Part shown: one piece after another, positions 2,263 to 45,767 of the stretch
How positions within the stretch are numbered: position 1 is the stretch's first letter
Layout: each line of letters starts with the position of its first letter
Origin: Rugalucina vietnamica
Lineage: Eukaryota; Mollusca; Bivalvia; Lucinida; Lucinidae
Assembly: GCA_964017185.1 (NCBI GenBank)
Contig: OZ024869.1
Span: forward strand, 56,632,761 to 56,696,760
Direction of reading: 5' to 3'
DNA: 64,000 nucleotides
The notes under the pieces: model-generated
Seen by the model: only the letters and a program-made list of their open reading frames with translations
What the model was told of the DNA's origin: nothing
Database searches by the model: none
Made by a program: the position numbers and the translations under genes

Positions 2263-2294
2263 GTAACATAAGGGTCTGTTGACCTACTTTCCAT

Positions 2295-15529: not shown

Positions 15530-15740
15530 ATGTTCTGCGCAGAATAGGAATTAGTACAAATCCGGAATTGTACCTGCGCAAAGTAGGAATTCTCACTTTG
15601 TCAGACAAAGTTAGAATTCCTACTTTGCCCGATTCGATTCCGGAATTGTCCGTGCGCAAAGTAGGAATCAAGACAAAGTAGGAATATATTATTTTCCTTG
15701 CGCAAAGTAGGAATTTCGGGACAAAGTAGGAATATTATCT
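15530..15740. repeat. AAAGTAGGAAT word cluster, left arm
   Basis: CAAAGTAGGAATTC and its complement GAATTCCTACTTTG alternate at 20-30 bp spacing, together with TCCGGAATTG and CACTTTGTCAGACAAAGT. The partner is at 16815-17005. It is small, but it has the same word-and-complement construction as the larger foldback elements. Confidence 0.65.
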
Positions 15741-20885: not shown

Positions 20886-23509
20886 GAAAGTCGTGTTTGA
20901 CCGCTATTATAAACAACAGCATTTAGAGTAAATACCATAATATGCCTTTATTGTCCTACATTGAGATTATTGTAACATTTTGATAGGATGTCACCGTGAA
21001 TATGCAGGGTTTGCATTTGACATACGAAATACTTCAATGTACGATAACGTCTCCGTTCCATTCTTACAATGACATGCTTATTTCCGCACGTCTAGTGATA
21101 CACCCAGTAGCTTATTTCCTTTAGCTGCCATTTTCGTCCCATTTTGAGATCAATTTCCGGATAATGACAGACTTTCAAATAATGACAGCAAACAAACAAC
21201 AAAAAGGCACTCAATGAATTTAAGGAAGAATGTATTCAATCACCATGGAATGTTTTCATATGTTCTGGACAGTAGTATAATTACATGCTAACTTATTGTC
21301 TTGACCAACTCATATGAAACTAACCTAATGCACTCAGACGTATACTGCTGAAAGTTTGATAAGGATCAAGATTTTATTTTTGTTCGCACGGCGAAAGCTA
21401 TTGCTGTCTTAAATGAAGTCGGTAAATAGCTATCCATAGCTAATTTTATATATGTTACATTATCTGACTTTAAATAAATTTTGACTTTGACTTTGACTTT
21501 GAAACCGTTCTTCTTTACACTCTGAGTATGAAGCTGAAGACAGATTTTGACCGATCCAAATAATGTTATCGAATTGTTTCAATGTATGATCCACATTTTC
21601 ATTAAAATGATGACTTGTTTAAAATCTATTTTTAATCGTTGTCAAATCTAAACCAATGCCCGTTTCTGTTCAAAACTCACAGACATTGGTATTTTACATA
21701 TGTTGTATCTGTAAGTGTCTGCCGAACGACGGTAAGTTGGGTCATGCTTTAACGCCACGTACGGGAGAAAGTTTTTTTTTTTCTAAACCACTTAGGATAT
21801 TATGCTTGTCATATGTATGATACCCCGCCTCCACTCACTATTCTTGCAAGTTTAGAGATCGGTTAATAATCAGTTGATTGCATTTTATTCGGAGCTTCTT
21901 GCCACTTAAGATAAATAGCGGATGTGAATTATGTCTCCACGATTGTTGTTAAAGACAAGGGTCGCTTCCATACACACATAATTGGAAAGTAAACTTTACA
22001 TAATTTTATCATTTTGGCACCAGCCTCTTTTGATATGATTTGTGCAATCTTTGGTCAGTCTTATTTTGATGACTGTTGTTTAGAATCATTAAGTAAGTTC
22101 TGAACGTTTTTAAAACTGTTTATTAAGCAAAACAAACAATTTTATCTGCATCTCTTTCCGCTACCAATTGGCCAGGAAAATAGCGCTTTATGCTTCCCAG
22201 ACGAAATAAATGTCTTTGAATTTAGTCAATGTTATGAGTTGAGGCGCCTCGTTTGACATGGAGAGCAAATATTAAGATATTGTCTGCTTTCTCGAAATGA
22301 AAAATATGCTTCGTTGTTTTTTGTCCTTGCACAAAAAGCTTCGTTTTCATCTATGGATCTTTACTTCAGACTCTTAGTAAACTCGATGATTAAAAAGCTG
22401 TTCAAACGACCGAACAAACTTTCTTGTGCTCGTATCAAGATGTCATCCATGGCATTGTCTTTTTTATAGTATTAATTCTGAAAATGAGAGAGAGAGAAAA
22501 AAAAAAGAGTTTTTGAAAATTAAAACAAATTGCTTTTATACACAATGTATTAGCGGCAATGTGGAACGTAAAATTTTATACAAAACTGCGTTCCCGGCTG
22601 CCAAAAAAAGCGTTTTGGATTGCCAATAAGCATGTGTTGGCAATCGAGAGCATTTAATTTACGTTCTACATTGTCATTTTGGCAATCAAAAACGCTTTTT
22701 ATGGCGATCTAGAACTATTTTTGTTTATCAAATTTTGACTGTGATTGTGTCGGTTCCTGGTGGTATATACTCACTGAAATCTTTACTGAGAATAATCATT
22801 GAAATATATTTATGTCTGGTCAAAGAAGGACGTGACATTAATATCAACTGGCAGAATTAGCGATTGATTAATACGCGTATCTTATGCCTAGGTCACACTA
22901 GGGCTTACGTACGCTGCGGACGCTGTGGATAGGTGTTCCGTATCTGTCCGTCCTATCCGTAACGATTCGTATCTCATCCGTAATGTCCGTAACTGTACGT
23001 ATCGTATCCTCAGGGCGCGGTAGATCCGCGGGCAAATTTTCATAACTGTCAAAAATGCATGCGCGGATGGACGATCGGTAATGGTAGGCAATGATACGTA
23101 ACTGAAGGCATTTATTCGAATCTGTCCGTATCTGATCGCATCTAAACGTATCATTCCGCGATCAAGCATTTGTTGCGGATCGATACTGTTACATACGTGT
23201 TGTTTCGTTCGGTTGCGGTCTTTGTCGTTTATACACACTTTTCGATACAATTTAATACGTTCAGATACGAACACGAAATGTAACGGTTTTCCTAAAGTTT
23301 ACACAGCATGCCACACGTATGAAAACGGAATCAAACTAGGATGCAACTTGAACAATGCTAATAAGCGTGTGGCTGAGCCCTCTAGAGCTGAGTGTTTGGG
23401 CATAACATAATCTGTATCCAATGCTTGAATGAATCATACAAGAACGTTTCTGGAATATATAGTCTCCTTGACAAAAATGTCCGTCATTTTTCTATTATAC
23501 AGGTAATTT

Positions 23510-26500
23510 ATTTATTTAAAGATATCCATAATTCATTTATGGGTATCCATAATTCATTTATGGATATCCTTAATTCATTTATGGATATCCTAAAATAATT
23601 AAAGATATCCATCAATATTTTTGGATATCCTAAAATGAATTATGGATATCCTTAAATGAATTATGGATATCTATAATTGAATTATGGATATCCTGAAATA
23701 CATTTTTGGATATCCAAAAATCACGATGAATTATGGATATCCATAATTCGATTTTTGGATATCCAAAAATCAAAATATGGATATCCTTAAATCAGCTCAT
23801 TTAAGGATATCCTTAAATGTGTTTTATGATATCCAAAAATAAGCTTGAATTTAGGATATCCATAATTCGATTTTTGGATATCCATGATTCTTTTTTTGGA
23901 TATCCATAATGATCTGATTTAAGGATATCCATAATTCGATTTTAGGATATCCATAATTCATTCTAAAAAATATTTCTTTTCCATGATGATTTTTTCCGTG
24001 TAATACGCATGCGCTAACTTAAACTGAACGAAACGGAAGCCAACGTAAATTCAACCACACCGGATGCCTCCATTCTCTGACTAGGGAGAAATCATTATAT
24101 CCCATAGGCACGTATGGGGTGCCGTTTTACTATTTATTTCCTATTTATGGATATCCATAATTCATTTTTGGATGTCCAAAATTCATTTTTGGATATCCAT
24201 AATATATTGTTATGCCCCGGATCCCTGCCCGAATATGTGTATGTCACGAATTTATGTACATCATGTATTTACTGGATCGCTTAGGCTTCACAAAGCTCTA
24301 TTTTTGCATGTCATGTTATTTAATCTGATTTACTTTATTGAGCGAATTATTTTACCTGTATCTGTATGGCAGTATCTTTTTAATGGCCATTATACCATGT
24401 ATTTATTGATAAATACGATCCAGTTTCACAAATCATCTTGTTGACATGAAGCGTGTGTATTGATTTCTTTGTGTGAATGCAATATTGTGTGAAAGAGAGG
24501 CTGTCAGTCTGTTGCTGTGCTGTAATCTCGACAGTTGTCAAAATAAAAAATCAGAATAGATCGCCAAATCAATCAAAGTTCCCAATTTCCCCCAGTCAAA
24601 TCACCGTAAGGGTCATTTAGAGAAATTATTCTTCTTTCATTTCGCAACATCAACATGACAAAGTTCATTCATTTTTATATAGTTTTTGCCGATTTTCTGC
24701 AGTCTCTCAGTGTATTTTCAGAATTTACTGACTGTCATGGCCGACTTTTTGCATCTTGACGTCACGTATACAGTGCGTCGCGGTGTAGGATCACGTGGTC
24801 CTACAAGCTATACACTGTATACGTTGTGTGCTTGCAGACTATACATTGTATATGTTGTATACGCTGTAGGCATACAAGATTTACATTGTATACGATGTAG
24901 GTTTACACTGTAGACACTGTAGGGTATATAAGAAACGTTCTGTATACATACAGGGGCTTCACGTTTTGATCGTTCTACCGAGAGGCTGCGTTTTTTAGGT
25001 CTCTCGATTTTATTTGGATTTAATCTTAATTTTGAGGATTTCTTTGGTTAAAATTACAAAAATAAATAGGGAATAAATAAAGGAAGACAGTTTAAGCATA
25101 AATTTCATTTATTTTCACACTTTTGAACATTTTGAAGAATTTTAAAGGAAAATAACATTTAATTACATTTTCAAGTAAATCTGGCCGTTTTGTTGCAAAT
25201 CTGACATGTATTATTAAGGCTGAAGCTGACACAGCATTGTATGCAAGTGATTATTTTGCCAAAGCATCTCATTTTTCATTAAGGTTCCATGCTACCATAT
25301 TTAAAGTTGTTTCAAGTCGTGTTTTAATACATTATTTCATCATTGTTACATACCTGTTGTTTATATTTGAACAAGTTTGCACAACCGTCACATGTTCTAA
25401 TCTAGTCATTTGTTAATTAAAAGAAATGCAAACTTGAACAACCTCTTTGTTGTTGATTTCACACCATTAATTGCATGTTGATACGTCATTAAGATCATAC
25501 TCATTATTTCATCAAAAGTCATTTTTGGTTGAAGCCCGCTTTATTTTACGCTTTATTCTGATAACCCTGAACCCCAAGCAAGACCAGAACCACCTCCAAT
25601 CGTTTGGCACGGACCGGGTCGTAACAATATTTTTGGATACTCATAATTCTTTTTTGGATATCCTAAAATCGATTTATGGATATCCTTAATTCGGCTGAAT
25701 ATTGGATATCCATAAATTGATTTTAGGATATCCTATAATCGAATTATGGATATCCTGAAATACAATCCTATTTTTGGATATCCATAATTCGATTTAAGGA
25801 TATCCTAAAATCGAGCTAATATTGGATATCCATAATTCGATTTATCCTTAATTATTGTAGGATATCCATAAATGAATTAAGGATATCCATAAATACATTA
25901 TGAATATCCTTAAATAAATTATGGATATCCAAAAATAGGGAATACATAGTAAAACGGCACTCCATAGGCACGTACATCATTTTTTTGTGATTTAAGGATA
26001 TCCTTAAATGAATTATGGATATCCTTAAATACAGTCCTATTGAAGGAAATCCATAACTCATTTATGGATATCCATAAATCGAATTATGGATATCCAATAT
26101 TAGCCCGATTTTAGGATATCCTTAAATTGAATTATGGATATCCAAAAATAGGATTGTATTTTAGGATATCCATAGTTCGGTTTTAGGATATGCTAAATCT
26201 ATTTATGGATATCCAATATTCAGACGAATTTAGGATATCCTTAAATTGATTTTAGGATATCCAAAATGAATTATGGATATCCAAAAAAGAATTATGGATG
26301 TCCAAAAATAAGTTTTGGATATCGAAAAAAATAAGGATATCCATAATTCATTTCAGGATATCCATAATTCATTTCAGGATATCCATAATTATTATGGATA
26401 TCCATAATTCATTTATGGATATCCATAATTCATTTTAGGATATCCAGAAATGTTAATGGATATCATTAATTATTTAAGGATATCCATAAATGAATAAAGG

Positions 26501-26920
26501 ATATCCATAAATAAATTATGGATATCCTTAAATGAATTATGGATATCCAAAAATAGGGAATAAATAGTAAAATGGCACCCATAGGCACGTACATCATTTT
26601 TTGCGATTTAAGGATATCCTTAAATTATGGATATCCTAAAATACAGTTCTATTGAAGTACACCCATAACTCATTTATGAATATCCATAAATCGAATTATG
26701 GATATCCAATATTAGCCCGATTTTATAATATCCTTAAATCGAATTATGGATATCCAAAAATAGGATTGTATTTTAGGATATCCATAGATCGATTTTAGGA
26801 TATCCTAAAATCAATTTATGGATATCCAATATTCAGACGAATTAAGGATATCCATAAATCGATTTTAAGTATCCAGAAATGAATTTTGGATATCCAAAAT
26901 GAATTATGGACTTTTTTCAA
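23510..26920. repeat. GGATATCC palindrome array, core of element B
   Basis: Dozens of GGATATCC octamers, usually as TTATGGATATCCATAATT or AAATTGGATATCC variants, occur at about 20-30 bp spacing at 23510-23970, 24145-24205 and 25630-26910. The octamer is its own reverse complement and contains GATATC. A conserved spacer (CCATAGGCACGTA next to GTAAAACGGCA) occurs inverted near 24100 and again near 25960 and 26580. It may be a second foldback element nested in element B. Confidence 0.8.
24208..25626 (+). mobile_element. Solo LTR-like insertion (1,419 bp) in the GGATATCC array
   Basis: It begins TGTTATGCCCCGG and ends CCGGGTCGTAACA, TG...CA style with inverted ends. ATAT flanks both sides (24204-24207, 25627-25630). 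Inside are TATATAAG at 24925-24932, a TATA-box candidate, and AATAAA at 25071 and 25082, as expected for an LTR with promoter and polyadenylation signals. There is no second copy or internal gag/pol, so a solo LTR is the best reading. A DNA transposon with 15-bp terminal repeats is the alternative. Confidence 0.6.
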
Positions 26921-27776
26921 AATTTGGGCGCGGATGGAATCGGACTTGCATATACAATACGTTAAGATACGAACATATACGGAAAAGATACGAATTGTTA
27001 CGGATATGACGGATAGATACGAAAGGTCAGTCCGCAGCGTCCGCAGCATCCGGATGTGCTAGTGTGACTGTAGTTTGACTAAAACCTGCGTTTTCTTGCA
27101 TCAAATTTCACCGTTATATACGCAAGAAAACGCAACATTACGTATCTGAAGGTGTATGTCTGTATCTCAAAGTAACAGATGGTATCGAAAGGTATGTAGT
27201 CAAGTATCTTAACCGTATATATTCGAATTTATCCGTAACTATCTTCGAACGTATCCGTATCTTTCCTGAACTACCCGTATTTATTCGTATTTAAAGGTAA
27301 TAAATTCATTAAGAACCGTTAGCCCCGCCCACAAAATTCTGCGGATCGCTACGTATAGTATTCGCAACTATCCGCGGCATCCGTAAGCGCTAGTGTGACC
27401 TAGGCATTACATTCTTTGCTGTAACGCATCTACAATTGGCTTTATTGATAGCAAATACAATCCTATACAAAAACGCACTGACGCGACAGAAACAAACACT
27501 GCCTGTTGATCGAGATTTGTAGATCTCTGTTTTCGTTCTTTTAACTTCTCAGACATAATGTCCTGCTTTGATCTTTCAAGATAACTTCTGTGTGGCACAA
27601 AGTTCGCAAACTCTCTATTTCATGGCATCCTTTTATGCCAAACTTATACTCTAAACGTAATTATAACGACAACGAAAATCGGGATTTTCCCAAAGTTATT
27701 TTCATAATACTGAATCTAAACTTAATTTAAACATTTAGAAAAATACTACCTAATTTCTGCATAATTTTCCACAGTT

Positions 27777-27959
27777 TTACAAAGCTTCATTTTTTTCTGC
27801 AATCTCTTGGATAAAACGCCAAATTTCAGCCTGCAGCCACACGGGAGTAAATCCTTTAACAGTCGTGTTATATTTACCTCGCATATACATTTTGAAGTAT
27901 TTGTAAACCAAACAGATAAGAATAGCACACACGTGAATTTCGACATCTGACATCGACAT
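27777..27959 (-). pseudogene. Right-arm copy of the conserved short frame
   Basis: Reads MSMSDVEIHVCAILICLVYK, YFKMYMRGKYNTTVKGF, then TPVWLQAEIWRFIQEIAEKN and a stop after EAL. Aligned with 8337-8519, most differences are conservative and in frame. It is longer than the left copy. The family is unknown. A third, broken copy of the neighbouring non-coding sequence flanks 29421-31215. Confidence 0.3.
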
Positions 27960-28203
27960 AAAATTTTGCTAATTCTCATTGATTTGTAGAACGATTAATT
28001 AGCGTCCCTTATATTTCCAGCTCACTCGAAACAGTTTTCTGAATGCATCTTATCTTGTGAAGTGCAGAAACGGCTAAGCAGATGCTTCTATCTCAATGTA
28101 TGCTGAAAACAACACGAATAACTCGTAGTTATCAGGGCCCAGTTATTCAATATTAACAATGTCGTTAGTTAACGATTCGTTAAAATTTCATTTGGCAATA
28201 TTA

Positions 28204-28293
28204 CAAATACACTGTTATTTTTTGTTGATAAAATGTGAGAATCCTTTGCAAAGGATTCTCACATTTTATCAACAAAAAAGAACAGTGTATTTG
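28204..28293. repeat. 90-bp near-perfect palindrome, no loop
   Basis: Left arm 28204-28248 and right arm 28249-28293 are reverse complements with one mismatch in 45 (GTTATTTTTT versus the complement of AAAAAAGAAC). The centre is CCTTTGCAAAGG. It would extrude as a cruciform. No flanking target duplication was found. Confidence 0.92.
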
Positions 28294-28514
28294 CTTTTGA
28301 AGTCGATATATAGTTAACAAATTGAGGGCAAGCTAACAAAGTTTTGAACAACTGGCCCCAGTTGTAAAAGTTGCACTTCTTATTGAAGTCAGCATAGAAA
28401 ATACAGGTAATTAGTGTGCTTAAATTTGCTTGCACGATTTGTTGTACGAAGGCCAAGTTGATTGTTTGTGGTCACATACAGTTTTTTCAATAATGTCGAG
28501 ACAAAGCTTACGTT

Positions 28515-28790
28515 TCAGACTACTACTACTGCTCCAGGATGCAACATAGTCGTTGTAGGTCTAGAACCCCTGGCGACGTCAGCATGGTCAGGCACTTTAT
28601 TTGTGTTTATCGGGCAAAGAAAATATCTGTCACTTGGGTTCGATCCCCACAGGCGGCATGTTGTTGTGTCCTTGAGCAAGGCACATTAACTCACTTCAGT
28701 ACTGGTTAAACCCAGGAAGCGTCCCGACATGACTAATCAATTGTTGACTGGGACGTTAAGCCTCAATACAATACAAACAAACAATTTTTG
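28515..28790 (+). mobile_element. tRNA-derived SINE (+)
   Basis: B box in CTTGGGTTCGATCCCCACAG (28634-28653), then GTGTCCTTGAGCAAGGCAC and the 3' end TTGACTGGGACGTTAAGCCT followed by (AATAC)/(AAAC) tail units. The body closely matches the opposite-strand SINE at 28993-29175 and the tail at 62830-62960. Confidence 0.75.
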
Positions 28791-28992
28791 GTGCACAAAA
28801 TTGGTTGTTTGGATGGTTGATATCTTGTTTTATCGTAAAAACTTAAACAGGGTTTAGCTGTTGAGTCTAGCTGTGGAGACGAGATCTCGACAGAAAGAGG
28901 GCAAAAGCTATTGAACCTTGGCGCTCCTAATGTTTCAGTCATCTGATTTGGGTTTGTACAAAAATGGGAACGATGGAACATACGTCTTTGTT

Positions 28993-29178
28993 TGGGTTAA
29001 GATTTAACGTCCCAGTCAACAATTTGACGAAATCACCGCTTCCTGGGTTTTAACCAGTACTCTGGGGAGATAATGTGCCTTGCTCAAGGACACAGCACGG
29101 TGCCGCCATTAGGCATCGAACCCAGGACCTCTCGATTCGGAGTCAGATGCTCTACCACTACGCCATCACAATCCCCCA
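28993..29178 (-). mobile_element. tRNA-Arg-like SINE (-)
   Basis: On the minus strand the head reads GATGGCGTAGTGGTAGAGCA (A box), TCTGACTCCGAATCG (anticodon arm resembling tRNA-Arg CCG) and GGTCCTGGGTTCGATGCC (B box). The same GTGTCCTTGAGCAAGGCAC body and TTGACTGGGACGTTAA end follow. There is no matching acceptor stem, so it is a SINE head, not a tRNA gene. Confidence 0.8.
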
Positions 29179-29420
29179 TGAAAAATACCACATGTATTAA
29201 GTCATTTGAAGTCAGTTTGCAGGTGATCTTAATAAACACATTTGTCATGTCGTATGCCTTTTAGTTTTAGATCATTGTGTTTTTCCTACCGTGTTTACTG
29301 CCACTCTCTTATACTCACTTGCGCCTGTGTTGAAAAACTGGAAAATGCTGCCAAATTTTCATCAGGTCTCAGAAAAAGTGAAACTTTGTAAAAAAATAAA
29401 AAAAATATGCAAAAAAAGGT

Positions 29421-31215
29421 ATGTTGCAACCAGAAATGTAACAATGTAACAATTGTTACATTTTGGGCAGTTTGTTACATTTTGGGCCGACAACGTCGAC
29501 CAGAAATGTTACAATCATGTTACAAAAGTTTTGTTACATTTTGGGTCGATGAGTGGCATATTTTTGAAAAAAAAAATGAATATTTAAACAAACACTTTAG
29601 CATCTATTATCCGTCAAAGACGATGAAGAGAAACACGTTTATCTTTCAATTTCTTCACTCAATCCACATTTTCAACAAACTATAATATTAAGACTTAATA
29701 TTTTGAATTAAAACTTAGAAAATGACTTCCCAACGAGTACTATCCCCTACCATCGCATGTCGAAACTTTTCCAGTTATATCCAAAAATGGTGAAAGAATA
29801 AATTATTCTATCATTTTTTCTTATTCAAGACATTCGTGTTGTTACATTGTTACAATTTAGGTTTTCCATATACGACCCAAAATGTAACAATGTAACAAAA
29901 TCTAAACTTTCTCTTCCAAACTACTAGCGTTTCCTAACCCTTTTCCTTTGTAAAGTTTTGAAAAGAATAGTAGCTACTTTGCTGGCTGCGGGGTACATCA
30001 GGATAACCAGTCTATAATAAGAAATTGAATACCCAAGACTTAAATAGTACGTGATTTCGGCCTGGGATTTTGGCCATTTGTCACCACTTGGGAAGGAAAA
30101 ATCTTTACATGTGTTTTGTCGATGAGTCTGATAAGTACAGAGAATTTTTCAGTATGATAGCTGTCTCATATCGATAGCTTTTGTCCTAAAAACTCGTATT
30201 TCGACATGTACCCAAGTTCGTCACTTTCAATTAAGACAATATGGTGTACCTACGAAATCAGACATATCTTACATGTACAAGCTATTATCCTTAACATGTG
30301 AATATGGTACCAAGTTAAGGTTTAGGCGCTGAACCTTTGTCTAGTTGTCATACACGTAAATTATCTAATTTGCATACTCATTAATATTTAAGAAAACTTA
30401 AAAAATAAGATGCAAACTATGGGAAAACGAAAATCTTCGTATGTTAATCATTTAATCAGTCCTATATTACCTACAGTTTATCATAGACAATGTAATATGG
30501 TAGGCCTACCAAGTTCAAGCGTGTGCTAAGAACATTCATTTGGCGTATCACATGTTCAAATCAGCCTACTTTGCTTATTCTTGAACGTGAGAATTGGGCA
30601 GAAAAGGCGAAATTAATTTCTAAGTACGCGAATTTCATACGGTTTTTCACTGACACAGCCCTATATTCTGAAAATGGTTATGCGCATCATGCATGTCAGG
30701 ACCCTTGTCGTACAATTTGTACAATGAGTGAGGTGGGGGTGGGGTTCTCATTGCCTGTCAATGTGGTAATATAGGAGTTGAGGTCAAATTGGACCAAAAC
30801 AACAAACGTTTCAGAATTGTGGAATTTCATTTTTTTCCCTAAACCAGCCCCTTATTTTAATGGTTTAATTATGTGTATCATGAAGCCAAGTGACCTGGTA
30901 CCACCATGGATGGGGTTCGATGGCGTCGGTGACTACGGGGACCACACAAAATGGGTAGTAGACAGCTAGAATATCCCATTTTGTAAAAAATATTTTTGTT
31001 ACATTTTGGACCGACAGCGTCGACAGCAACAAACTGTCGCTGTAACTGTTGTTACATTGTTACATTTTGGGTCGATATGTACTCTATCGACCCAAAATGT
31101 AACAAAAAAATTGTTACATGATTGTTACATTTCTGGTCGTCGTTGTTGGCTCAAAATGTAACAAACTGCCCAAAATGTAACAATTGTTACATTGTTACAT
31201 TTCTGGTTGCAACAT
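29421..31215. mobile_element. Foldback element D with TGTTACATTTTGGG words, AGGT target duplication
   Basis: Ends ATGTTGCAACCAGAAATGTA and its complement are inverted over about 70 bp (29421-29490 with 31145-31215). Words TGTTACATTTTGGG and GAAATGTAACAA recur on both sides. AGGT flanks both ends (29417-29420 and 31216-31219). The flanks are a third copy of the sequence at 8562 and 27745, which has one AGGT and no insert. The interior (29560-30990) has no recognised gene. Confidence 0.82.
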
Positions 31216-31330
31216 AGGTAGTATTTTAAATTTCTAAATTTATGCATATCTTCAGTTTGGATTCAGTTTTATGAAAATAACTTTGAAAAAGGTCCGATTT
31301 TCGTTGGCGTTATAATTCCGTTTATCGGCT
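31216..31330 (+). repeat. Third copy of palindrome-arm sequence flanking element D
   Basis: GTATGAAAATAACTTTGAAAA-like stretch ending CGTTATAATTCCGTTTA matches 8570-8655. The left flank before 29417 (GAAACTTTGTAAAA) matches the adjoining arm sequence. It breaks off after TTCCGTTTA. Confidence 0.7.
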
Positions 31331-32400: not shown

Positions 32401-32514
32401 GTCTGTTATACTGCAATGCCACATGGGATACAATGGAATGCTGGGACTACACGATGGCTGGCACTACAGCATACCAGTACTGTCCAACTTACGTCAAACT
32501 ATCAAACCCTCTTG
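32401..32514 (+). CDS. Receptor exon A: hormone-binding domain, first part
   Basis: Acceptor TGTTTGCAG ends at 32400. The exon starts with two bases completing an upstream codon, so at least one 5' coding exon ending in phase 1 must exist. It reads LLYCNATWDTMECW and on to YCPTYVKLSNPL, ending with one base of the next codon before GTAATC. It contains three cysteines of the class B domain, the conserved Asp/Trp pair and one N-glycosylation sequon (NAT). Confidence 0.95.
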
Positions 32515-35500
32515 GTAATCTACATATATATACACTACTGTATGGATGTTTAACACAATGCCACGAGTTAATAATGATAATGAGTTTAAATGAGTAACAC
32601 TTTGAAATTCATACATTGTAAGACAAGTTAAGGCCACATTACATAGAAACAATCCAAGTGCGGATATTTTCATAATGATAATCTGTTTTTGTCGACGGAG
32701 TACCAGGGATAATTTTGGAAGGGGCCATGGGCAAAATGCCCTTTAATTTTCATAATGGCCCCTTGAAAGCATGCGTCATATGTAATGTAAGGAGATAGCG
32801 GATAATGTTTCTAAATTGGAGTTTTTCTCAAATGGCCCCTTCCATATTTGAGCTAACAATATACCTGGAGTACAATGCTATTACCAGAGGTGTACATACG
32901 TATAAGCAGTTGTTGTAATTTCATAGCATAGTTGTAAACGTTAACCTGAAAGTTTCTCTGTTCAGAAGGAATTCTTATTACACATTCATTCAGAATAAAA
33001 TGTAAAACTGAGATCAGTGAATATATTAATGAGAAAGACGGTGAGGCAATACCTAGGTTTCGGTTACTTAAGCCTCGTCAGTGACCCTTCAGATTTGGCA
33101 ACACGGAGCCAAAGAGAATTGTATTTCGCAACATTCAACAGGGTAGTCGATACAAAGACTTCAATTATCCAAATGGGGCCAAATAAATTAAACGTTGGTC
33201 AGAAAAAAAAACTATCGTAAATGGTAAACCGATAATAAATTTCTGATTTCTTAAAATATCCCCACTGAGCTCAAAGGACCAAAAGGAAAGGAAAATATAA
33301 TCTGTACAATAGATGATATACAGGTTTAAGGGCCGCCTAGGACACCAGCTGCAGTAATAAAAAAAATAGCAAATAAAAAGTAAAACTGAGAAGTCTGCAT
33401 ATTGCACTTACCCGTTTGACATTTTCAGCGTATGCCACGAAGACTTGCAATCATGATGGAACGTGGATGCGGCATCCAGACACGGAACAAGTGTGGACAA
33501 ATTATAGCCAGTGTTATGATACAGATCTCGTTGAGGTATTTGATTGTTCTATACAGTTCTGTTTTAGCATAATGAAATTAATGCTAAATTACATGTGCTA
33601 TTCTGGTTTCAGTATACTAATGGACTGCATGTTCATCCCAAATGGACGAGATACATGTACATGTACATGCATCAGCATATAGTCTTGTTTGTTCTAACAA
33701 CAAAGGCCTGAGTGTACTTTTTATGTACTACTCACCGGAGGGTGATAATCATGTACTTTTCTGGCTTCAATTTAAGTAGTTTTGATTATTTCAGTAACAT
33801 AAGAGGGTGATGTTAATGTGCTACTATGACTTAAGTAAACTTATGGACTGGTTTGTTTCAGCAACACAAGAGGTTGATAATCATATACTACTCTCGCTTC
33901 AGTGCTCTAAGTAGTTTTGATTATTTCAGTAACATAAGAGGGTGATGTTAATGTGTTACTATGACTTAAGTAAACTTATGGACTGGTTTGTTTCAGCAAC
34001 ACAAGAGGTTGATAATCATATACTACTCTCGCTTCAGTGCTCTAAGTAGTTTTGATTATTTCAGTAACAAAAGAGGGTGATGTTTATGTACTTATTGACT
34101 AATTTATTTCAGCAACATAAGAGAGTGATATACATGTACTACTCTGGCTTCAGTGTATCGATAGTCTTGTTGGTGATATCTCTGTTCATATTTTCATTCT
34201 TTAGGTAAGTGAAAATAGACTTAAAATCGAGCATAAAATGACATTTCATATTCAATCATAATCGAAGATTTTTATACCCCCCGCAAAACGAAGTTTTAGG
34301 GGGGTATACTGTTTTCAGCCTGTCCGTCATTCCGTGATTCCGTCATTCCGTCAATCAGTCATTCCGTCATTCCGTCAACATTTTTACATCTTTGCTGAAT
34401 AACTTGAGTAGCGTTTGTCTGATTTGTTTCAAATTTTCACCACACTTGCACCATTAGACAATACATGTGTGATATGAATTTAAGGGCCAAAGGGTCAGTA
34501 TTGCAAGAGTTATGGGACTTTTTAAGTCTTCATATAACATGTTTGCCATAGTACTGAAAATACATACTTTGTGAAATCAACTCCTCTTACAGCTTTCACT
34601 GTTTCCTTTTAATATTTTGCTGATATGTTTCAGATAAATTACAGATGTGCATGAACACTTGTCATTATGAAAAACATCATTTTTGACAGATTTACAGCAT
34701 TTTTAACTCAGCAAATTTTCTATAATTGCTTATATTCAATAATGGTTGGTAGTGCATACTTTGTGAAATCAACTCCTCCTAGGGCTTTCAGTATTTCTTT
34801 TCAGTACTTTGCAGACATGTTACAGACATATTGAAGATGTGCATGTAGAATTATGATGCTGAAAAATTAATTTTTGACAAATTTACAGCATTTTTTAACT
34901 TTGCCATTTTTCGACTTTGCAGCAGCATTTTGACATCTTTGCTGAATAACTTGAGTAGCTTTTGCCTGATTTGTTTCAAATTTTCACCACACTTGCTCCA
35001 TTAGGCAATACGTATGTGGTATGAATTTAGAGGCTCAAGGGTCAGTATTGCAAGAGTTATGGTACTTTTTAAGTCTTCATCAAACATGTTTGCCATAGTA
35101 CTGAAAATACATACTTTGTGAAATCAACTCTTACAGCTTTCAATGTTTCCTTTTAATATTTTGCTGTTATATTTCAGATGTATTGCAGATGTGCATGAAC
35201 ACTTGTCATTATGAACAAAATCGTTTTTGACAAATTTACAGCATTTTTAACTTAGCAAATTTTCTATAATTGCTTATATTCAATAATGTTTGTAGTGCAT
35301 CTTTTCAGTACTTTGCAGACATGTTACAGACTAATTGAAAATGTGCATATAGAATTATAATGCTGAAAATATAATTTTTGTCAAATTTACTGCATTTTTT
35401 AACTTTGCCATTTTTCGACCATTGCTTATATACAATAATGGTTGGTAGTTAATAGTTTGTGAAATCAACTTCTCCTAGGGCTTTCAGTATTTCTTTTCAA

Positions 35501-38500
35501 TACTTTGCAGACATGTTCCACACATATTGAAGATGTGCATGAAGAATTATAATGCTGAAAAAATAATTTTTGACAAATTTACAGCAATTTTTAACATAGC
35601 CATTTTTGACCATTACTTATACAGTAATGGTTGGTAGTGCATAGTTTGTGAAATCAACTGCTCCTAGGACTTTCAGTATTTCTTTTCAGTACTTTGCAGA
35701 CACGTTCCACACATATTGAAGATGTGCATGAAGAATTATAATGATGAAAAAATAATTTTTGACAAATTTACAGCATTTTTTCACATAGCCGTTTTTTTAA
35801 CAATTGCTATTTTGCGGGGGGGGGGGTATACTGAAAGCCTTGCTTGCAGCCAATTTCTAGTTATTGTTGTTTTCGATGCCCAAATTAATGTAGCAAAATG
35901 TTTTTAGATGATATTAGTTGTTCTAGAATTCTGTAAGAAGTTCTCGAAATTTCAAAAGTTTCTTATTAACATGTTATATTTCAATTAATCAGCAACTTTC
36001 CGGCAAATCCACAAATGCAATGTCATATCAGGAAGTGTTTGTTATCTGGCAACATGTTTGACACTAATGCTGTGGTATTGTCTTGCTATTTCGAAATAGA
36101 AATACAAACACGATAGATCAATATAAATCACAACCCGTCGACATAATGTTATAGTGTGCATAAACTGCATTCAATTTGTCTATATCGCTGTCATACAATA
36201 GCGTATAAGACACACGCGCAACGGGCGTGTTATAAAAGAATTGCAAAATTCAACATACACCAGAAGCACGTTGGAGACACGTTAGAAACGTGTTACGTAC
36301 GTGTGCGTTTTGTACGCTTGGTGTACGTTGATGTTCGTTGCTATCGGTGCGCGTTCCTAGAGCGTCTGGGCTCCAAAGATTTTTAACCATGTTGAACAAT
36401 TTTCAGGCTGGAAGCTCGGCATGTCTCGGGCGTGTGTCAGGTTATATTACAGGTACATTACATACGCTTTGAATGTAGCGTTTGGCGCACGTTTTAGGCA
36501 CTTTAATGAGATATTAATGAGAAAGGAGTGGGTCATACCGCGCTTTCGGCTGCTCAAGCCTCATCCAGTGACCCTTTAGATTTGGCAACATGGAGCCAAA
36601 GAGAATTACTCTAAATTTGAAACTTTTAAGAGGGTAGACAATACAAAGACTAGTATAATCCTGATGGGACCAAATATGTTCAACGTTGGTTAGAAAATGA
36701 AAATTTTGATAATAAATTACTGACTGTGAGGAGTGGTCATTTCATATGAAATTTATTAAACGAGCCTTCGGCGAGTATGATACATTTCATATGAAATGAC
36801 CACAAGTGCAAGGTTCGAATTATTTTATTACGTTATCCTCCTAAAATTTAGAGACTGTTATTATTATCATTATTATTGTTGCTGTTGTTGTTGTTACATG
36901 TATCATTTGAAAGGTTTGCATATGATATGAAACTTAGTAAATTGATTTCTTAAATAATCAAAAACAACATGCGTAACGAAATATTTGTATAATTAATAAA
37001 ACAAAACGGATAAGTATCGAAAAGATATTTTCAAATGAGTGTATCTTAAAGTTTCTTAAAGTTTCTCACCAATATCAAAAACAAATTTTGCGAGTATTTT
37101 GTGTTTTGGCCTAGAATTGCTATGATTATTGCCTCGACATACTAAATCGCGTTGCAATGTCAATGTAAAAGCATTTCCAGAAAGTTTAACTTTAAAGTAG
37201 TCTGGGCAATAAATGCCCCACCTAGTCAAAGTTGATGGATACGTCTCAAATGTAAAGCCCCGTTTACACATTCACGATTTTTGGCTACGGTGCCGCTACG
37301 ATTCGCCACGATTTGTAAAATCGTCGTGTACCGTGGTGTACCGTGGTCATTCGTAGTAGAACCGTAGTGAATCGTGGTGAATCTTGATTAATCGTGATGA
37401 TTCGGGAAACTCTACAGCAGCGCTACGAAAGTTTTAAACTGTTTAAAACATTCGTGGCGTACCGTGGCGAATCGTGGTGGTAAATGGGCGTGGCCTTATT
37501 CGTAGCGCAACCGTAACGGAATCTTGCTTATTCGTACTGACACCGTAGCTATATTCGCGGCTATTCGTGAGAGATCGTAGCCAATCGTGGAGCTCCGTAG
37601 CGAAACCGTGGAATTTTTTACACCACGAACTCTCACGATTCACCACGAATTGTGTACGGTTGTCCTACGAATCATCCACGGTTTCGCTACGGAGCTCCAC
37701 GATTGGCCACGACGGCTACCGCCGTGAATCGTACTAATACCGTATCGAACCGTACAAGCACCGTGAGCATTCGTTGTGCCACCGTGGTTAATCCTTATTG
37801 ACCGTAGCGTTGCCGTCATGAATCGTCATTGATTCGTAGCGATACCTTACAGACACCGTACTAAGATCGTGGACATTCTTACTAGAATCGTAGAGATACT
37901 GAATATTTCCACTTTTCGCCACGATTCACCACGATCCATCCCGATTTTTCTGACCATGAGAAATCGGGGTGAATCGTGGTGAATCGTAGAGAAAATCGTG
38001 AATGTGTAAACGGGGCTTAAACCACACGAGTAAACTTGACGTGAGGCATCGTTCTCACTGAAAAGAGAAGGGTGTCATATAATTCAGGTTTATGTTTTAA
38101 TCAATGCATTATGACATTTTCTGTTGAATAACGAGCACAATCTTCCATTTTATTAGAGCTCGCATCTTAAACTGTAGCCATTAAAGTTAATCAAACATCA
38201 GTTGATCGTGTGGTCATTGTGGACCAGATTGTAACATTAATCTATTGCTTGAACATATGAACCGCCTCATGAGTAAACCAACAATCTGCATATGCGAAAC
38301 CAAAGCTCCTTTGTTTTCGCTACACGGATAGTGCAGTTCTAAAATTCCAAGCCTCTAGCCTGCTTCTGTGATTGTACAGGCCGGTTTGTGTAGGAACTGT
38401 TCGAAAACCACATTGTTGGTTTTCTCACGCGAAGGTTCATTTTTTGTTTTCATCACGTATCACATGTGGTGACAGCGGATTATTGCTTTGATTTGGTCTG

Positions 38501-41500
38501 TAGTGAATCCCAAGAGGACATTACCACTTTCAGTTTTCTTTGTCATAATGTTTAGCACAATGTTTTATGGCCTGTATTTTTCAGACAGCTGAAGTGTGTT
38601 CGCGTTACTCTACATAAACATTTGTTCCTGTCCTATATACTCACCGGTGCACTATGGATAGCCTACTACAGACTGGTGCCTATGAGTTTAGAAACTGTTT
38701 TGGGAAACCCGGTATGATATATATTTTATATTCATGTGAGAAATCAGCAAAACAAATAGTTACATTGTTAACTACAGGAGATCATCGTTTTGGAAAGGGA
38801 CAGAATACTCCTATGCTTCTCCCAAGATATAACATATTGCTCTTGTTGCTGCTGTATTCATGACGCCACATCCATGCACTATTCAAAATTACATACGTGC
38901 TTTCTGTGACAATCAATGTTCTTATAAAATACTGATCCACAGATTGTTTGTTTTACTTCCTAATTTTGGTTAGATCCGTGTAATATATACCCCCTAAAAC
39001 TCCACTTTTATATAGTAAAACTGGGGTATACAGGGGTATATCTATTTTTCTTATTTTTGCTCCAAAACATAGATTGCCGAGGTGGTTCGAACGTGTACCC
39101 ACAATCTATATTTTGAGCAAAAATCTGAAAAATATCAAACTTTTTTTGATGAAAATTTTTAATTTTTACAAGTAAAGAAAAGTCTGCATATTACATGGCA
39201 GATTTCAGCTTTAGGTTTATATTTTAAGGTCTCAATCTATATGCTAGATAGCATATTAGGGATGTAAACATTATGCCATGCTGTTGTTTGTGTTACAGGT
39301 ATGGTGTCAGATTCTTCATGTCATGACACATTTCTTCACAGTTTGTAACTACGCCTGGATGTTCTGTGAAGGGTTTTACCTACACGCTCTCATTGTTATT
39401 GCATTTACAAAAGACAAAAAGTTGTTATACATGTGTTACGTTATTGGATGGGGTAAGTCTTCGTTGATTTGATCAATTTGAATGATGTACCCAATCAGTT
39501 ACATGATTTACAGATTCAGTCTATCAATGTACTAAGCACAATATTGATAAGATGCATCACCTCTCATGGAAATAGTTAATAATGAAAATTTGTTTACGAA
39601 TTTACCTTCAGTTCAGTGCAGGCCACGTATTTTGCAAGATTGATTTCAAAACATCATCTGTTCTCTGTGTGTGTATTCGGTTTATTACTAGCCAAACAGT
39701 GATTAAAGCGATATTTCATTTTAGAATCTGTTACCAGATGAATAATTAAATATTTGGTTTTCGAAAATGAAAAAGCAATGTATCAACGATATAATTTCAG
39801 TTTTCCCGGTGTTGCCTGTGTTGATCTACACATGTATACGTGTGGTTGATGAAGAGGAAAATAAAAGGTAAAGATGAGGCCAGCCAAGAGCATACTGTAA
39901 TTTCGAGACACTACGTAGTATAGTGTACGTGTATACGAAGTTAGCGTTTCACGGACATAAAGGGGCCTACATGTACCTACTCCCTAAAATAAATAGTAAC
40001 TTTTTTTCCAGCTGTCGAAAAGGTTTCTTGTGGCTGCCTAAAACACCAAAAGTTTATGCCTGCTCCCCAGCTCACTTAAATATTTTCTGGTGATCCCCAG
40101 CTCCCTGAAATTAAGAGTCCTTCAATAGCCCTCTAAGGACCGCAGTAGAATAGCTCTTATCCGGTCTCCATTTTTGCTGTTACTGATTTCATACGAGGCT
40201 TTTGCATTTCCTAAGCTGTTTTCTGCTAAAATATCACCTTGGGAGTTGCCAGTGTCTGAAAGACAATAAATTCTAGAACACGGCTTATTGTCATTTTATA
40301 CCCTCTCAGGTGTTAATTATAGAAACATTATTGTAACAATCAAATTACTGAAGTGATCTGAAAATGTGTCTAAAATACCAATTGCAATAGGAAAAACTCT
40401 TGAAATTAACTTAAAATGTCTGTAGGGGAAACACAAACCGTATTTCTAGAACCATAAAATGACAAATTTTCCTTCGAGGTCAAGACTGCTACAATAATGT
40501 TGTATTACGTGTACCATGCTAAATATGTGTCATGCTGGCTGCATTATATATGATAAGCTATAACCTCGCAGATTCAAAAGGCAATTGTTCCTTTATTTCG
40601 AACAAAGTCTGGCTTCATGTTAGTAATATCGACTGAACTTGTGAGATCATAATGCCATGTAAGAGTGTCCAAGAATACAGAAAACAACAAAAACTGATTT
40701 TAAAGTTTTCAATTTTTGTCATATTTACAGTTATTGCTTTTGCTGGATGAACCACTGCATTTTGTCATCAACTGACTGCATTTACAATCATTATTGTTCA
40801 TTCTTTAAATATCACAGTAATGATGATAAAATTTCTCAGGCTTTGTTGGAAATGATTAACGCGGCGTCCCATCTGGGGCTATTCTGTTTGCACAGAGATT
40901 TTGATCGAAAAATGAGATAAAAAAAGAGTAAAAATCACTCCTAACACCCCTAAAACTGAAAGTGGACTCATCCAATTGATAACGATGGGAAAATCCATGC
41001 GTCAAATATGGGTTAATTTTCAAAAGTCAAATTTTTGTCTATTTTGCTACATAGCTTGAATATGGATTTCCGTGTTGAAACGCTTTTTACAGAGAATCCT
41101 CAATTCCATGCATCAGGAAAACATGTCCATAAAAAGTATACACCCTTGAACCCCACTTTTATGTCGTAAAACTGGGGTTTGCAGGGGTATACATATTTTT
41201 TTTCTTATTTTTGCTCCAAAACTTAGATTGTAGGTACTGGTTAGAACCGCCTCGGTACCCACAATCTATGTAAAAAATAAATAAAAAAAAAATAAAATAA
41301 AAAAAATAAATAAAATAAAAAAAAAAAATCAAATTTTTTTCTACTAAAATTTTTCATTTTTACAACTTTCAGAATCTCTGTTTGGGCATGTTTCGTAATA
41401 CATGCTAACTGTTTCAGATGTTGGACGGAGGAATCTAGCCTGAACTGGATACTGCTGGGACCTATAACGGCCTCACTTATTGTATGTATGCTCATGGCAA

Positions 41501-44500
41501 AAATAGTGCATTCAATTTTGGTGGTTTGAGCTACATTATCTTGAATAGAACAGTACATTCGTTCGAATTTTAAAGACTCCTTTCGATAGATCAATTTACT
41601 GGATGTATTACCCAGTTTTGAAGGTTTGAGTTGCATTGTAAAACACAGATCCTCTACTCAAAACAGTACATTCGTTCCAATTATAAACTCTCCTTTCGGT
41701 ATAAAATGTTCTGGATGCATTATGTTTTGTAGTTCATTAGTATAATACCTGCAGTCATTACGTAAAGCCATTGTTTACCTTAACTCATTTAAGCCCGGCG
41801 TCCCTTTTATGGGACATACTGAGGCAAACATAATAGCCCCAGATGTGACGCCGCAGAACGCGGCGTCCCATCTGGGGCTATTTTGTTTGCTTAGAGAATA
41901 TTCATCGAAAAATTGAATGAAATTTAAATATCACTCCTGATGCCCCTAAAAATGAAAGTGGACTCACCCAAATGATAGTGATGGGAAATACACTCGTCAA
42001 ATATGGGTTAATGAATAATTTTCCAGGTGAATTTGATATTTTCCATCAACATAATGAGGATACTTCTTTCAAAACTGCGCTCTGTCCACACAAATGAAAC
42101 CATGCAGACCAGGTATGTATTTATTTATGCCCGTGTGCATTGTCATAATCACCGTTAGCCATTAAGTTTCTGTTGAACGTATCAATACTTATTTCATCGT
42201 TACTTGAATTTGTAGATATACTACACAAAAAAAGTTGAGCACATATTTCATAATCGTGTCAAGTGCATGAAAAAAACACAATCTCTTTTCTAAAATCAAG
42301 CAAAAGTTCACAATGATGGAAAACGTTGTGTAACGGGATAGTCTCCCTTGCAGAATACGTTGGTGCAACGTATTAGCGGCATATTAGCGGGTAGTAATAT
42401 GCAAATTAGAAACTCGAAACTTTGTGATTAGAGTAAGTGTTAGGTATATAGCGCAGTAAACCACCCTTGGTGGATGAGCATGCTTTTCCACCGACGGGGT
42501 TTCTGTGGCTTGGCTCGGCTGTTCGTTACATTTGGTGGCAGCGGTGGGATGATGACAACTGCCAGACCGGAGTTGCCTTACCCATGTAGTCCCCAGGCCA
42601 AGACTCGGGGCGAGTCTTCTCGGAGGGGGAAGTAATGTAACGGGATAGTCTCCCTTGCAGAATACGTTGGTGCAACGTATTAGCGGCATATTAGCGGGTA
42701 GTAATATGCAAATTAGAAACTCGAAACTTTGTGATTAGAGTAAGTGTTAGGTATATAGCGCAGTAAACCACCCTTGGTGGATGAGCATGCTTTTCCACCG
42801 ACGGGGTTTCTGTGGCTTGGCTCGGCTGTTCGTTACAGTTGAAAGGAGCAAGGAAATCACAACCGCTTATGTCATGTCTTTTTTGTATATAAATTGTTAA
42901 CTCTTAACTCAATTAAACAGCAGTCGACAGTAATGATTTAGTTGAAATACATGTGTATATTTGCAGACGGGCTGTTCGAGCTACACTAATCCTGATACCA
43001 CTGCTAGGTCTTCAGTACATCGCCTTTCCTTTTAAACCACCACCGGGATCAAGTGGAGAACATGTTTATTCCATGATTGTTGCTTTCTTAGTTTCGTTTC
43101 AGGTACGACATATTCACGTACATGTACATGTATGTCTGAACTGTAAGCAGCACGTGTATTGTTTTTGTTTCTGTAGTCTTACCACCAAAAAGTGCCGATT
43201 CACGACCTTATATGATGGAAAATAAATAAGGGAGACGGATTCGTATAAGAAATTTGGCATCTTTCTGAATCCTATCATTTATGTTTTCTATCTCGTATGT
43301 ATCTTATTTTATATTAATTATACTGAAGCTTTACACCTTTTATTGTTTGTGTTTTGCGAAACACAAACTCTCATTCGGTTTTTTACGGAAATCCGGCGAT
43401 AGTTTGCGCATGCGAGTTTTCATCAATATTTATATACATACTAATTCTAGTCTTTTGATCTTGACCTTGACTTCTGCGTAACCTCAGTTCGTTTTCGTTA
43501 TGAAAGTAGACAATAATAAAGACATGATGTAAGAATAACAAAAAGATCAAACAAAATGTTGATAGAAGTAACATTTTTAATAGTAAAATATGCCTTGTCA
43601 ATATCAAGGTTACTCCGATCAACCTTTTAAATGTAAGCTGATCTGTGTTTTGTTGCCCCTACATGCGCGGATCCAGAGGGGGGGGGGGGGGCGGGGGTCC
43701 GGACCCCCCCTGGAATTTGAAAATTTTACGTAAAAAAAAGGTTATTTCGGGATTTTTTGAGGGTTGGACCCCCCCTCGTCTGTGAACAAAAATTACCATT
43801 TTCGTTGGACCCCCTCTCATGAAAATTTCATGCCCTATATAGCCAAAGTTGTTTTTCTTTTGCTGTGCCTCAGTGGCTCAAATTCTGTTTCTTTATCAGA
43901 TGTTTTGTAATTGGTTATCTCGGGTTTCCGATCTCCGTTATGAAAGTTGGCATGACGCAACGAATCAAAGCTGGCTGATGCAACGTCTAATATCGTTGCT
44001 GGTACATGTTTATACACTGGAATTCTGTCAAGCAGCCTTCTCACGAGAAAATTTTTTGAGGTTTCCGAACTGTTCGACACAAACCAGCCTCTACGACTTC
44101 ATTTAAAGTTAAACATTTGGGATTAAAGAAAAAAGTGCAACTGCACTGTTCGTGAAATGAAAACAAAGGCGCTTGTTATTACACAGCTGATCATCTGTAA
44201 ACAACGAGTTTTCTCATAATGCGGCTCCAATGCATTTGTTTATGTTACCCTAGAAATACATTAGCTATTTTTAATTTATAAAGCCCCTGTCAGACCAGAG
44301 GGCGTTCGCGCGGCGTTTGCGTGGCGTTCTTAAATTTTCTTAATTTGTCCAAAACGCCACGAGAACTCCAAGAAAAAATGATTTATTTGTGAAAAAAGCA
44401 AGCCATGGCGTCCTCACGGTGTCATCACGGCGTCCTCGTCGCGTCCAAGGCGTTCCTATGGAGTTCTCACTGCGTTCTGCGGAGTTCTATGTGGCGTGCC

Positions 44501-45767
44501 ATGGAGCTTGCACGACGTTTTCACTGCGTTTGCGCGGCGCTCTTGGCGTTCGCAACGCGCTTCTACGGCGTTCGCACCGCGCTTTCACGGCGTTCTAGCA
44601 CTGCTCTGACGGCTTGTAGGCAAAACAGAAACAAAGTTTCACTCATTTGTACGTTTGCTTTCAATTTGAAACTGCTGCACCTGCATACACACAAGTAGTA
44701 AACCAGCTTGCTGCTCGACAGACATATTGAATGTCATGATGTGCATCCCATTTAAATAGTGGTTTGTTTGCTTTTGTGATAAAATTTGCATATCTTTTTA
44801 TTCATCTTTTTCAGTGCTTTTATCATAAGAACGCCATAGGATGCGGTAGAAGCGCCATGCGAGCGCCATGAACGCCGTGACAACGCCTTGCAAACGCCAC
44901 GGGAACGCTGTAAGATAAACAACACGCCGTGGAAACGCCATAGACGCGCCTTATAAGCGCGGTGGTGGAAACGCCGTGATAACGCATTGCAAACGCCACG
45001 GAAACGCTGTAAGATAAACAACACGCCGTGAAAACGCCATAGACGCGCCCTATAAGCGCGGTGGAAACGCCGTGAGAACTCCATGGACGCAGTCGGAACT
45101 CCGTGGAAACGCCATGGGCTACCACGGCTTTTGCACTACGATCACACGGCGCGCCCGCGGAGTTCCCGCCGCGTTGGTGAAGTTCTCACTGCGTTGCCAC
45201 GGCGTCCTCACGGCGTCCCCACGGCGCTCTTATTAGAACGTCGAGTGATGGCGTTTGTTTTGAGCATGTCCAAAAGAAACGCCGACCCTTGGCGTTCTAG
45301 GATTTCCCACGGCGTTCGATGGAGTTCCCACCGCGTTGCCACGGTGTCCATGGAGTTCTCACAGCGTTCACCTTGGCGTTCTGCATTTTTGTAGAACGCC
45401 GCGAGAACGACACCCTGGTGTGACAGGGGTTTTAGAATGAAATCTGTAAATGCATATTAAGCAGCACCAAAACGAAATGAATATGAACGTAAACAAACAC
45501 CACCCTGTGAACGTTCTGGGTATTGTTTGCGTCAGTTTAAAAAGATAACGCACTTGGAAAAGAATAAGGTACTGGGATTAACTACGGAGCGTATACTCGT
45601 ATTTTGACTCGGTGTCCTGTCACAAGTTTTGAACAGCGTTAGACTGTGCGGTGAAACAGATCTATTCCGGATTTACAAAGGAGATCGATATACTTTCTGT
45701 GAAGCGAAAAACAAATGCGATGATCAACACGGTCTTTGTTTTTGCATTATGTTAAATACAGGGTTAC

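Follow-up and report, generated by a model that had tools for sequence, protein, structure and literature searches.

The DNA analysed here is a stretch of 64,000 nucleotides (hereafter, the window) of the lucinid bivalve Rugalucina vietnamica (assembly GCA_964017185.1, contig OZ024869.1, positions 56,632,761 to 56,696,760 of the forward strand), and our subject is a set of repeat-built elements within it, named E1 to E8 (Table 1). A first-pass annotation had described E1 to E4 as well-bounded mobile elements of one shared design, in which inverted ends are followed inward by a short word repeated in both orientations, and had listed E5 to E8 as less clear cases; it had further proposed that each element has its own word and, possibly, its own DNA-binding factor. 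The description as bounded mobile elements with inverted ends and inward words in both orientations is supported. Two groups can nevertheless be differentiated within the set: (i) E1, E3 and E4, which resemble one another, are high-copy non-coding DNA transposons flanked by TTA or TAA (together, TWA), as in the PIF/Harbinger superfamily; and (ii) E2 is a transposon of a different kind with a truly different word, so that the original list mixes at least two transposon types.

The window is rich in repeats nested within repeats, and several elements lie in or beside a large inverted duplication (8385-27950) whose arms, approximately 8.4-16.1 kb against 27.9-16.4 kb, meet at an axis near 16.2 kb and are 85-98% identical by segment. 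Later insertions into one arm of this duplication provide natural empty-site controls.

Table 1. Positions in the window of the elements E1 to E8, of their parts and of the corresponding unoccupied sites
Feature	Positions	Strand	Remarks
E1	22885..27406	.	composite; exact 17-bp terminal inverted repeat TGCCTAGGTCACACTAG; TTA on either side (22882-22884 and 27407-27409)
E1 left arm	22885..23505	+	CGTATC words, ~10-bp spacing; below the threshold of the CGT window scan
E1 core, left part	23506..24213	.	palindromic GGATATCC, mostly every 20-22 bp
Probable solo long terminal repeat	24214..25627	+	TGTTA..TAACA ends; splits the GGATATCC array; read from sequence, no target duplication established
E1 core, right part	25628..26910	.	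GGATATCC array
E1 right arm	26911..27406	-	CGTATC words, ~10-bp spacing
Unoccupied E1 site	8896..8898	-	single TTA in left arm of large inverted duplication; ~14 bp length difference adjoining
E2	29422..31214	.	TGTTGCAACC..GGTTGCAACA; first 63 bp an exact inverted repeat; flanks AAGGTA (29416-29421) and TAGGTA (31215-31220)
Unoccupied E2 site	8559..8564	+	TAGGTA once, in related host repeat
Second unoccupied E2 site	within 27735-27790		right arm of large inverted duplication
E3	37256..38017	.	762 bp; exact 26-bp terminal inverted repeat AGCCCCGTTTACACATTCACGATTTT; TAA on either side; CGT words at 10-11 bp intervals
E4	44282..45431	.	ends AGCCCCTGTCAGACCAG / AACCCCTGTCACACCAG; TAA on the left, TTA on the right; blocks of AACGCCGTGG words, alternating in orientation
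E5	1690..2268	.	GGACGTAGTAAG words, mostly at 11-bp spacing; left tip unrecognisable
E6	15530..15745	+	AAAGTAGGAAT words
E6 partner copy	16800..17010	-	E6 duplicated by the large inverted repeat
E7	9422..9654	.	inverted-repeat element; GATTGCCA/TGGCAATC words
E8	36150..36500	.	weak element; CGT at +10/+11, 8 against 0.9 expected

Elements and their genome copies

Copies of E2, E3, E4 and the right arm of E1 were sought in the 1.09 Gb genome (47 contigs). A first look gave unverified candidates in the number of 856 for E3, 606 for E4, 209 for E2 and 1481 for the E1 right arm; forty copies of each, the window's own included, were scored, and since these were the best scored ones, divergent copies are under-represented. 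The elements E5, E6, E7 and E8 are known here from their window copies alone.

All 40 scored copies of E3 span bases 1 to 762 at an identity of at least 97%. Flanks were examined in 30 of them, where TAA/TAA occurred 12 times, TTA/TTA 10 times, TAA/TTA three times, TTA/TAA once and other pairs four times (L056 and L067, which have common flanks and correspond to one insertion in a duplicated stretch, were both counted). CGT patches were noted beside several of the fetched copies (L014, L050, L053, L056 and L067); the one in the flank of L056, which L067 also has, turned out to be a GAC-type microsatellite. Two E3 copies (L053 and L055) are inserted in the TTTA of another E3 tip.

The 30 loci of E4, some of them overlapping, yielded 25 distinct copies with both ends once the reverse readings of L009 and L030 had been removed. 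Their flanks were TAA/TAA (7), TTA/TTA (5), TAA/TTA (6), TTA/TAA (2) or other (5); that is, TWA stood on both sides in 20 copies and as an identical pair in 12. Aligned over 43 columns that take in a few bases of the flanks, the inverted ends of E4 agree in 36. The number of words ranges from 27 to 46 across copies and the length from 909 to 1817 bp; all 25 copies arrange their blocks alike (reverse, forward, reverse), the last forward word is found in 22 of them, and in 17 the third block contains one reversed word.

In the case of E1, the right arm matches at 99-100% in all 40 scored copies. Sixteen right junctions were available and 15 were read (L103, whose tip is different, was left out): TTA or TAA stands next to the right end in 14 of them and TGA in one. 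The edge of the GGATATCC array beside the right arm is also found in other E1 copies, with matches starting two bases into the query, and locus L004 holds a GGATATCC array (497-607 and 859-1257) free of CGTATC arms, which ends in AATAGGGAATAAATAGTAAAGCGGCACCCC much like the inner arrays of E1. Judged from these sequences, the GGATATCC core may be either native to E1 or nested in it.

E2 was recovered at 28 loci, seven of them incomplete, which left 21 complete copies of 1038 to 2727 bp. Its words, TGTTACATTTTGGG in both orientations, lie near the ends: there are 9-17 per copy and, in all 21 copies, all but 1-4 of them are found within ~200-250 bp of an end, whatever the length of the copy. An exact 6-bp target duplication with consensus ~NAGCTN is present in 12 of the 21; a 4-bp duplication (AGGT), suggested by one copy, was consequently rejected. 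The right flank of the window copy matches both unoccupied host repeats well, while the left flank clearly matches only the one in the right arm of the duplication.

Taken together, the limits originally given for E1 and E3 proved exact, with perfect inverted ends of 17 bp and 26 bp between TTA/TTA and TAA/TAA, respectively. The other two needed small corrections, as E2 begins and ends one base further in than 29421-31215 and E4 stops at 45431 instead of 45432. Boundaries are consistent among genome copies, as seen in the full-length E3 copies, in both ends of E2 and E4 and in the right ends of E1. Furthermore, when the window was scanned for inverted ends of 12 bp, exact and bordered by the same 3 bp on both sides, 12 matches were left after removal of pairs within tandem arrays, E1 and E3 among them, as against 0-3 in 20 shuffled windows.

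Words, spacing and the CGT core

Word enrichment was assessed by counting repeated 8-mers in both orientations and comparing each element with 100 dinucleotide shuffles of itself. Counts exceeded all 100 shuffles in E1, E2, E3, E4, E5 (1690-2275), E6 (15530-15745), the E6 partner (16800-17010) and E7 (9380-9660). E1 to E6 and the E6 partner stand far over their shuffles, and E7 modestly so (25 pairs; shuffle mean 3.3, maximum 12). Six of 16 plain 1-kb control windows also lay more than 2 standard deviations over their own shuffles, the top ones being 51000-52000 (86 pairs against 30.7) and 42900-43900 (74 against 27.8), and because of this the excess of E7 is to be taken cautiously. The main elements lie much further out than the controls, as in E3 (261 pairs against a shuffle value of 14.2); E5 does so too (313 against 9.5).

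The less clear cases fared unevenly. The one placed at 1690-2262 is a real element (E5), although its left end cannot be recognised; its right tip would be the reverse-strand sequence GTCTACACC, TAA lying past position 2268. The case at 15530-15740 (E6) is equally real, but its supposed partner is a copy of the same element, so that a single element, doubled within the large inverted repeat, accounts for both AAAGTAGGAAT copies. The case at 9380-9660 (E7) holds up as a modest inverted-repeat element and has a counterpart in the right arm of the duplication, near 22540-22734. Finally, the case at 36150-36490 (E8) was rejected as a word element: no 8-mer is enriched in 36150-36500 (5 pairs against a shuffle mean of 3.6 and a maximum of 12), and its ends are poor, 12 of 300 shuffles being as good.

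As regards the words themselves, a short core recurs at regular distances in several of them. When trinucleotides were ranked by their recurrence at +10/+11, CGT (ACG) was among the top three in the E1 arms, E3, E4 and E5, and first in E8; in the window scan, it ranked first of 32 trinucleotides outside tandem arrays. Only E5, the E1 right arm, E8, E3 and E4 came out of a scan of all 64 kb in which a 300-bp stretch had to contain five or more CGT/ACG repeated at +10/+11 on the same strand. Autocorrelation peaks at 10 or 11 in the E1 arms, E3, E4 and E5, and the distances between CGT triplets peak at 10-11, 20-22, 31-33, 41-43 and 52-54 in E3 and at 11, 20-22, 30-33 and 41-43 in the 25 copies of E4. 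In the trinucleotide test, the core was absent at +10/+11 from E2, E6 and the GGATATCC core, and E7 had no significant excess. A common CGT core recurring about once per helical turn across several families may be new; we have not met it in the open-access literature, where no search was aimed at that core by name.

Longer matches relate some elements and not others. Shared 7-mers exceed expectation between E4 and E5 (223 against 94; z 8.7) and between E5 and E6 (39 against 12.7; z 6.1), and are not beyond chance among the E1 arms, E3 and E4 (z -1.3, -0.6 and 1.0). Out of 55 pairs of ends compared, the right ends of E4 and E5 align (z 3.6; 0 of 300 shuffles) and the tips of E1 and E4 are alike (z 3.6; 1 of 300 shuffles). 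The shared-tip pattern GTCWACACYRGG is not enriched in the window (10 matches against 15.3 expected), and the tip patterns found nothing in viral or prokaryote contigs. A simple motif fit settled on palindromes and was not used.

These results bear on the proposal, made in the first-pass annotation, that each family carries an unrelated word that co-evolved with a private DNA-binding factor. The claim of one word per element stands for the longer words, which do differ, and fails for their centre, since the E1 arms, E3, E4, E5 and E8 have the CGT core in common. The absence of that core from E2, E6 and the GGATATCC core, the differing flanks of the words and the chance-level 7-mer sharing among the E1 arms, E3 and E4 would fit private factors; the core and its 10-11 bp spacing in five sets, the 7-mers that E5 has in common with both E4 and E6, and the similarity of the E4-E5 right ends and E1-E4 tips do not, and we consider one factor per family improbable in the form proposed.

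Transposon class and role of the word arrays

The 3-bp TTA/TAA target duplication of PIF/Harbinger is seen as identical TWA pairs in 22 of 30 E3 copies and 12 of 25 E4 copies and as TTA/TTA around the window E1, and the short terminal inverted repeats of that superfamily are present in E1, E3 and E4. The tip motif G(N)5GTT is absent from these three elements, E1 and E4 having G(N)5GTC and E3 having G(N)4GTT; this motif is used for plant PIF-like elements and is not stated to be general to the superfamily (PMC2213677).

Foldback arrays are already known, as are subterminal binding sites and Harbinger passengers. PIF/Harbinger elements have a transposase and a Myb-like protein, the latter of which binds a 9-bp subterminal motif in the zebrafish element Harbinger3_DR (PMC9710019); the Medicago PIF/Harbinger element MtPH-A6-4 carries subterminal tandem repeats in opposite orientation and in numbers from 2 to 35 (PMC2213677); and multiple binding sites have been termed a convergent trait (PMC3573991). 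Both named elements resemble E1, E3 and E4 in their TTA/TAA target, short inverted tips, opposed subterminal motifs and variable repeat number. The MtPH unit, in contrast, measures 60 bp and contains a triplicated AAACNNCTTATT, whereas the units described here measure 10-11 bp, have a CGT core and occur in several families known from non-coding copies.

In the case of E2, the 6-bp target duplication, supported by the exact duplications among its copies and by two unoccupied sites, is like that of IS3EU and GingerRoot. The ends are TA..TA in IS3EU and TA..TA or, occasionally, TG..CA in GingerRoot (PMC10045372), so that the TG..CA ends of E2 are unlike the former and permitted for the latter.

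In structural terms, E3, E5 and E4 conform to the foldback class, that is, to long inverted ends made of tandem short repeats, with opposed blocks and single-strand DNA folds far under those of shuffled sequences: z is -15.7 for E3 (20 shuffles), -7.4 for E5 (100 shuffles) and -10.8 for the 44820-45431 part of E4 (20 shuffles). The foldback element FB of Drosophila has unit sizes of 10, 20 and 31 bp, which resemble the spacings found here. Tm1 (PMC3169594), Galileo (PMC3573991) and Tetris (PMC4079207) are alike in their modular inverted ends of direct tandem repeats and variable length, and differ in that (i) Tm1 makes 9-bp duplications and has repeats of 13-15 bp; (ii) Galileo makes 7-bp duplications; and (iii) the repeats of Tetris measure ~220 bp. 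The 9-bp duplication of Mutator-type foldback elements such as Tm1 was not found among the copies of E2, E3 and E4, where TWA or 6 bp is seen. The folding values would also suit the idea that single-strand hairpins of the arrays, instead of bound proteins, are the substrate of recombination; every inverted repeat folds, nevertheless, and the short fixed target duplications are typical of staggered-cut transposases, so we give this idea hardly any credence.

Starting from the boundaries, target sites, copy families, CGT core, spacing and block order observed, we lean towards reading E1, E3 and E4, and probably E5 and E8, as one type of non-autonomous, TTA/TAA-inserting transposon whose word arrays serve as landing pads, with E2 being independent. 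Such elements would move by cut-and-paste at TTA/TAA, most likely through a PIF/Harbinger-type transposase. Each end would consist of a tip of 15-25 bp followed by an array of 10-11 bp words, the constant part of which is CGT; given units of that size, neighbouring words on the same strand would lie about one or more helical turns apart, and the opposed blocks would face each other in such a way that a strand could fold back. The array would most likely offer many landing sites to the protein that binds DNA alongside the transposase (a Myb/SANT/MADF-like protein in the case of Harbinger), a role suggested by the precedents of Harbinger3_DR, of MtPH-A6-4 and of multiple binding sites as a convergent trait; having many sites could raise occupancy and help the pairing of the ends. 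E2 would have arrived independently at the same layout with another word and, to judge from its TG..CA ends and 6-bp duplication, an integrase-type enzyme.

Evidence on what the arrays do comes from their CpG sites. When words of one array are compared at +10/+11, CG is the dinucleotide kept in the largest fraction (0.42; 132 against 62 expected) and with the largest z (11.9), AC and GT coming next; within the words of E1, E3, E4 and E5, a CG pair likewise belongs to the best-conserved positions (0.68-0.94, at sites picked by their similarity to the word). At the same time, CpG is the fastest-changing class between recent copies, whose differences are probably mostly neutral: the rates per site are 0.0132 for CpG, 0.0095 for other G/C and 0.0061 for A/T in E3, and 0.0376, 0.0287 and 0.0199, respectively, in E4. 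Poor retention of CpG would be expected of arrays that were purely tandem repeats in decay, and this is not what is observed; binding arrays are favoured over slippage because of this contrast, which backs the inference that the arrays are binding sites.

The alternative here is that the arrays are decayed 10-11 bp minisatellites, enlarged by slippage or by unequal exchange as the elements transposed, and play no part in binding, the short tips being sufficient. The variable word number and length of E4, the unit-like spacing, the comparably variable repeat number of the Medicago element (PMC2213677), the lack of a clear CpG phase across orientation switches and the fact that CG is not the top dinucleotide by every conservation measure all agree with it, and it is possible that a minisatellite was kept together by exchange between units. 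Besides the behaviour of CpG, it has to face a CGT core common to five families, the constant block order of E4 and the E2 words that stay near the ends of copies of very different length; we regard it as possible, if rather unlikely.

A number of observations weigh against the landing-pad reading itself. AC and GT are slightly ahead of CG in excess fraction, as GG and CC are in ratio, and E4 and E8 have word columns in which the C or the G is kept at no more than 0.58-0.64. Strand-blind CpG periodicity, compared with 100 shuffles, is not significant in the right part of E4, E5 and E8, and is just under the largest shuffle value in the left parts of E1 and E4. The idea that helical phase is kept across orientation switches was rejected, as no clear phase was seen, E3 being perhaps an exception (for which there was no shuffle control); with such weak periodicity and no phase across switches, the spacing may be merely the unit length of a tandem repeat. 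E8 shows no word enrichment. The E3 tip aligned with no other tip among the 55 end pairs. A Pfam scan of 82 open reading frames of the window (93 have at least 75 amino acids; 11 were left out) found no transposase, partner or DNA-binding gene. The superfamily calls, for which the target sites are the sole basis, are weakened because duplications of 3 bp are also made by Zator, and those of 6 bp by Polinton (PMC10045372). Finally, nine of the 55 E3 and E4 copies have a non-TWA flank, and another 12 (among loci L009-L038 and L039-L068) combine a TAA flank with a TTA flank, nine of these with TAA on the left and TTA on the right; mutation, exchange of ends between copies or an odd repair step could account for such mixed flanks.

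The regular spacing admits yet another explanation, by which the phased arrays, whether of CGT or of GGATATCC, would work by shaping the DNA (bending or nucleosome positioning that leaves the ends accessible or silenced), with no sequence-specific protein of the element. Spacings close to one or two helical turns, the latter in the GGATATCC array, are in its favour. The non-significant strand-blind periodicity just mentioned speaks against it, as does the fact that bending needs no directional word kept on one strand per block, and it appears very unlikely to us.

A narrower version of the landing-pad reading is that one and the same factor recognises, in all the TWA-targeting families, a minimal CGT core placed at intervals of about one helical turn. 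The flanks of the core would drift into vocabularies specific to each family, selection would hold its CpG in spite of a high mutation rate, and E2, an unrelated type, would have evolved the same end layout with a different word; we put this forward tentatively, as an unlikely though specific proposal.

In any case, foldback arrays have often been treated as structural oddities, and here several families of one genome combine differing words with a common core and spacing. Four families, each with 40 or more scored copies, offer a near-neutral yardstick, by which a core free of constraint would be expected to decay faster than the rest. The choice between binding array and slippage is now testable, and phased CGT gives a simple handle with which to search for such elements in raw sequence.

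Other structures in the window

Several other repeats were noted. An inverted-repeat element beginning with TACTGAACAAAAAAAGAAACGCAAC (14836-15526) is present in the left copy of the large duplication and not in the right one, and a nearly perfect palindrome of ~90 bp lies at 28190-28300. Two larger inverted-repeat structures are found at 52362-55884 (arms of ~850 bp at 93%) and 57107-58961 (arms of ~570 bp at 89%). Tandem units of 128 bp occur at 2276-3400, 7370-8300 and 61600-62150, the first two arrays being opposed and ~4 kb apart in a foldback-like manner. These units carry GGTCANNNTGACC, a palindrome of nuclear-receptor type, which has eight exact occurrences in the window against 0.02 expected.

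As for open reading frames, a 51-bp satellite at 47799-49992 (43 copies, 97% matches) is itself open over 548 codons. Two of the 82 frames included in the Pfam scan match the hormone-receptor domain HRM, and a match to Pfam 7tm_2 (E 5.4e-05) marks 42917-43222 as a likely secretin-family receptor exon.

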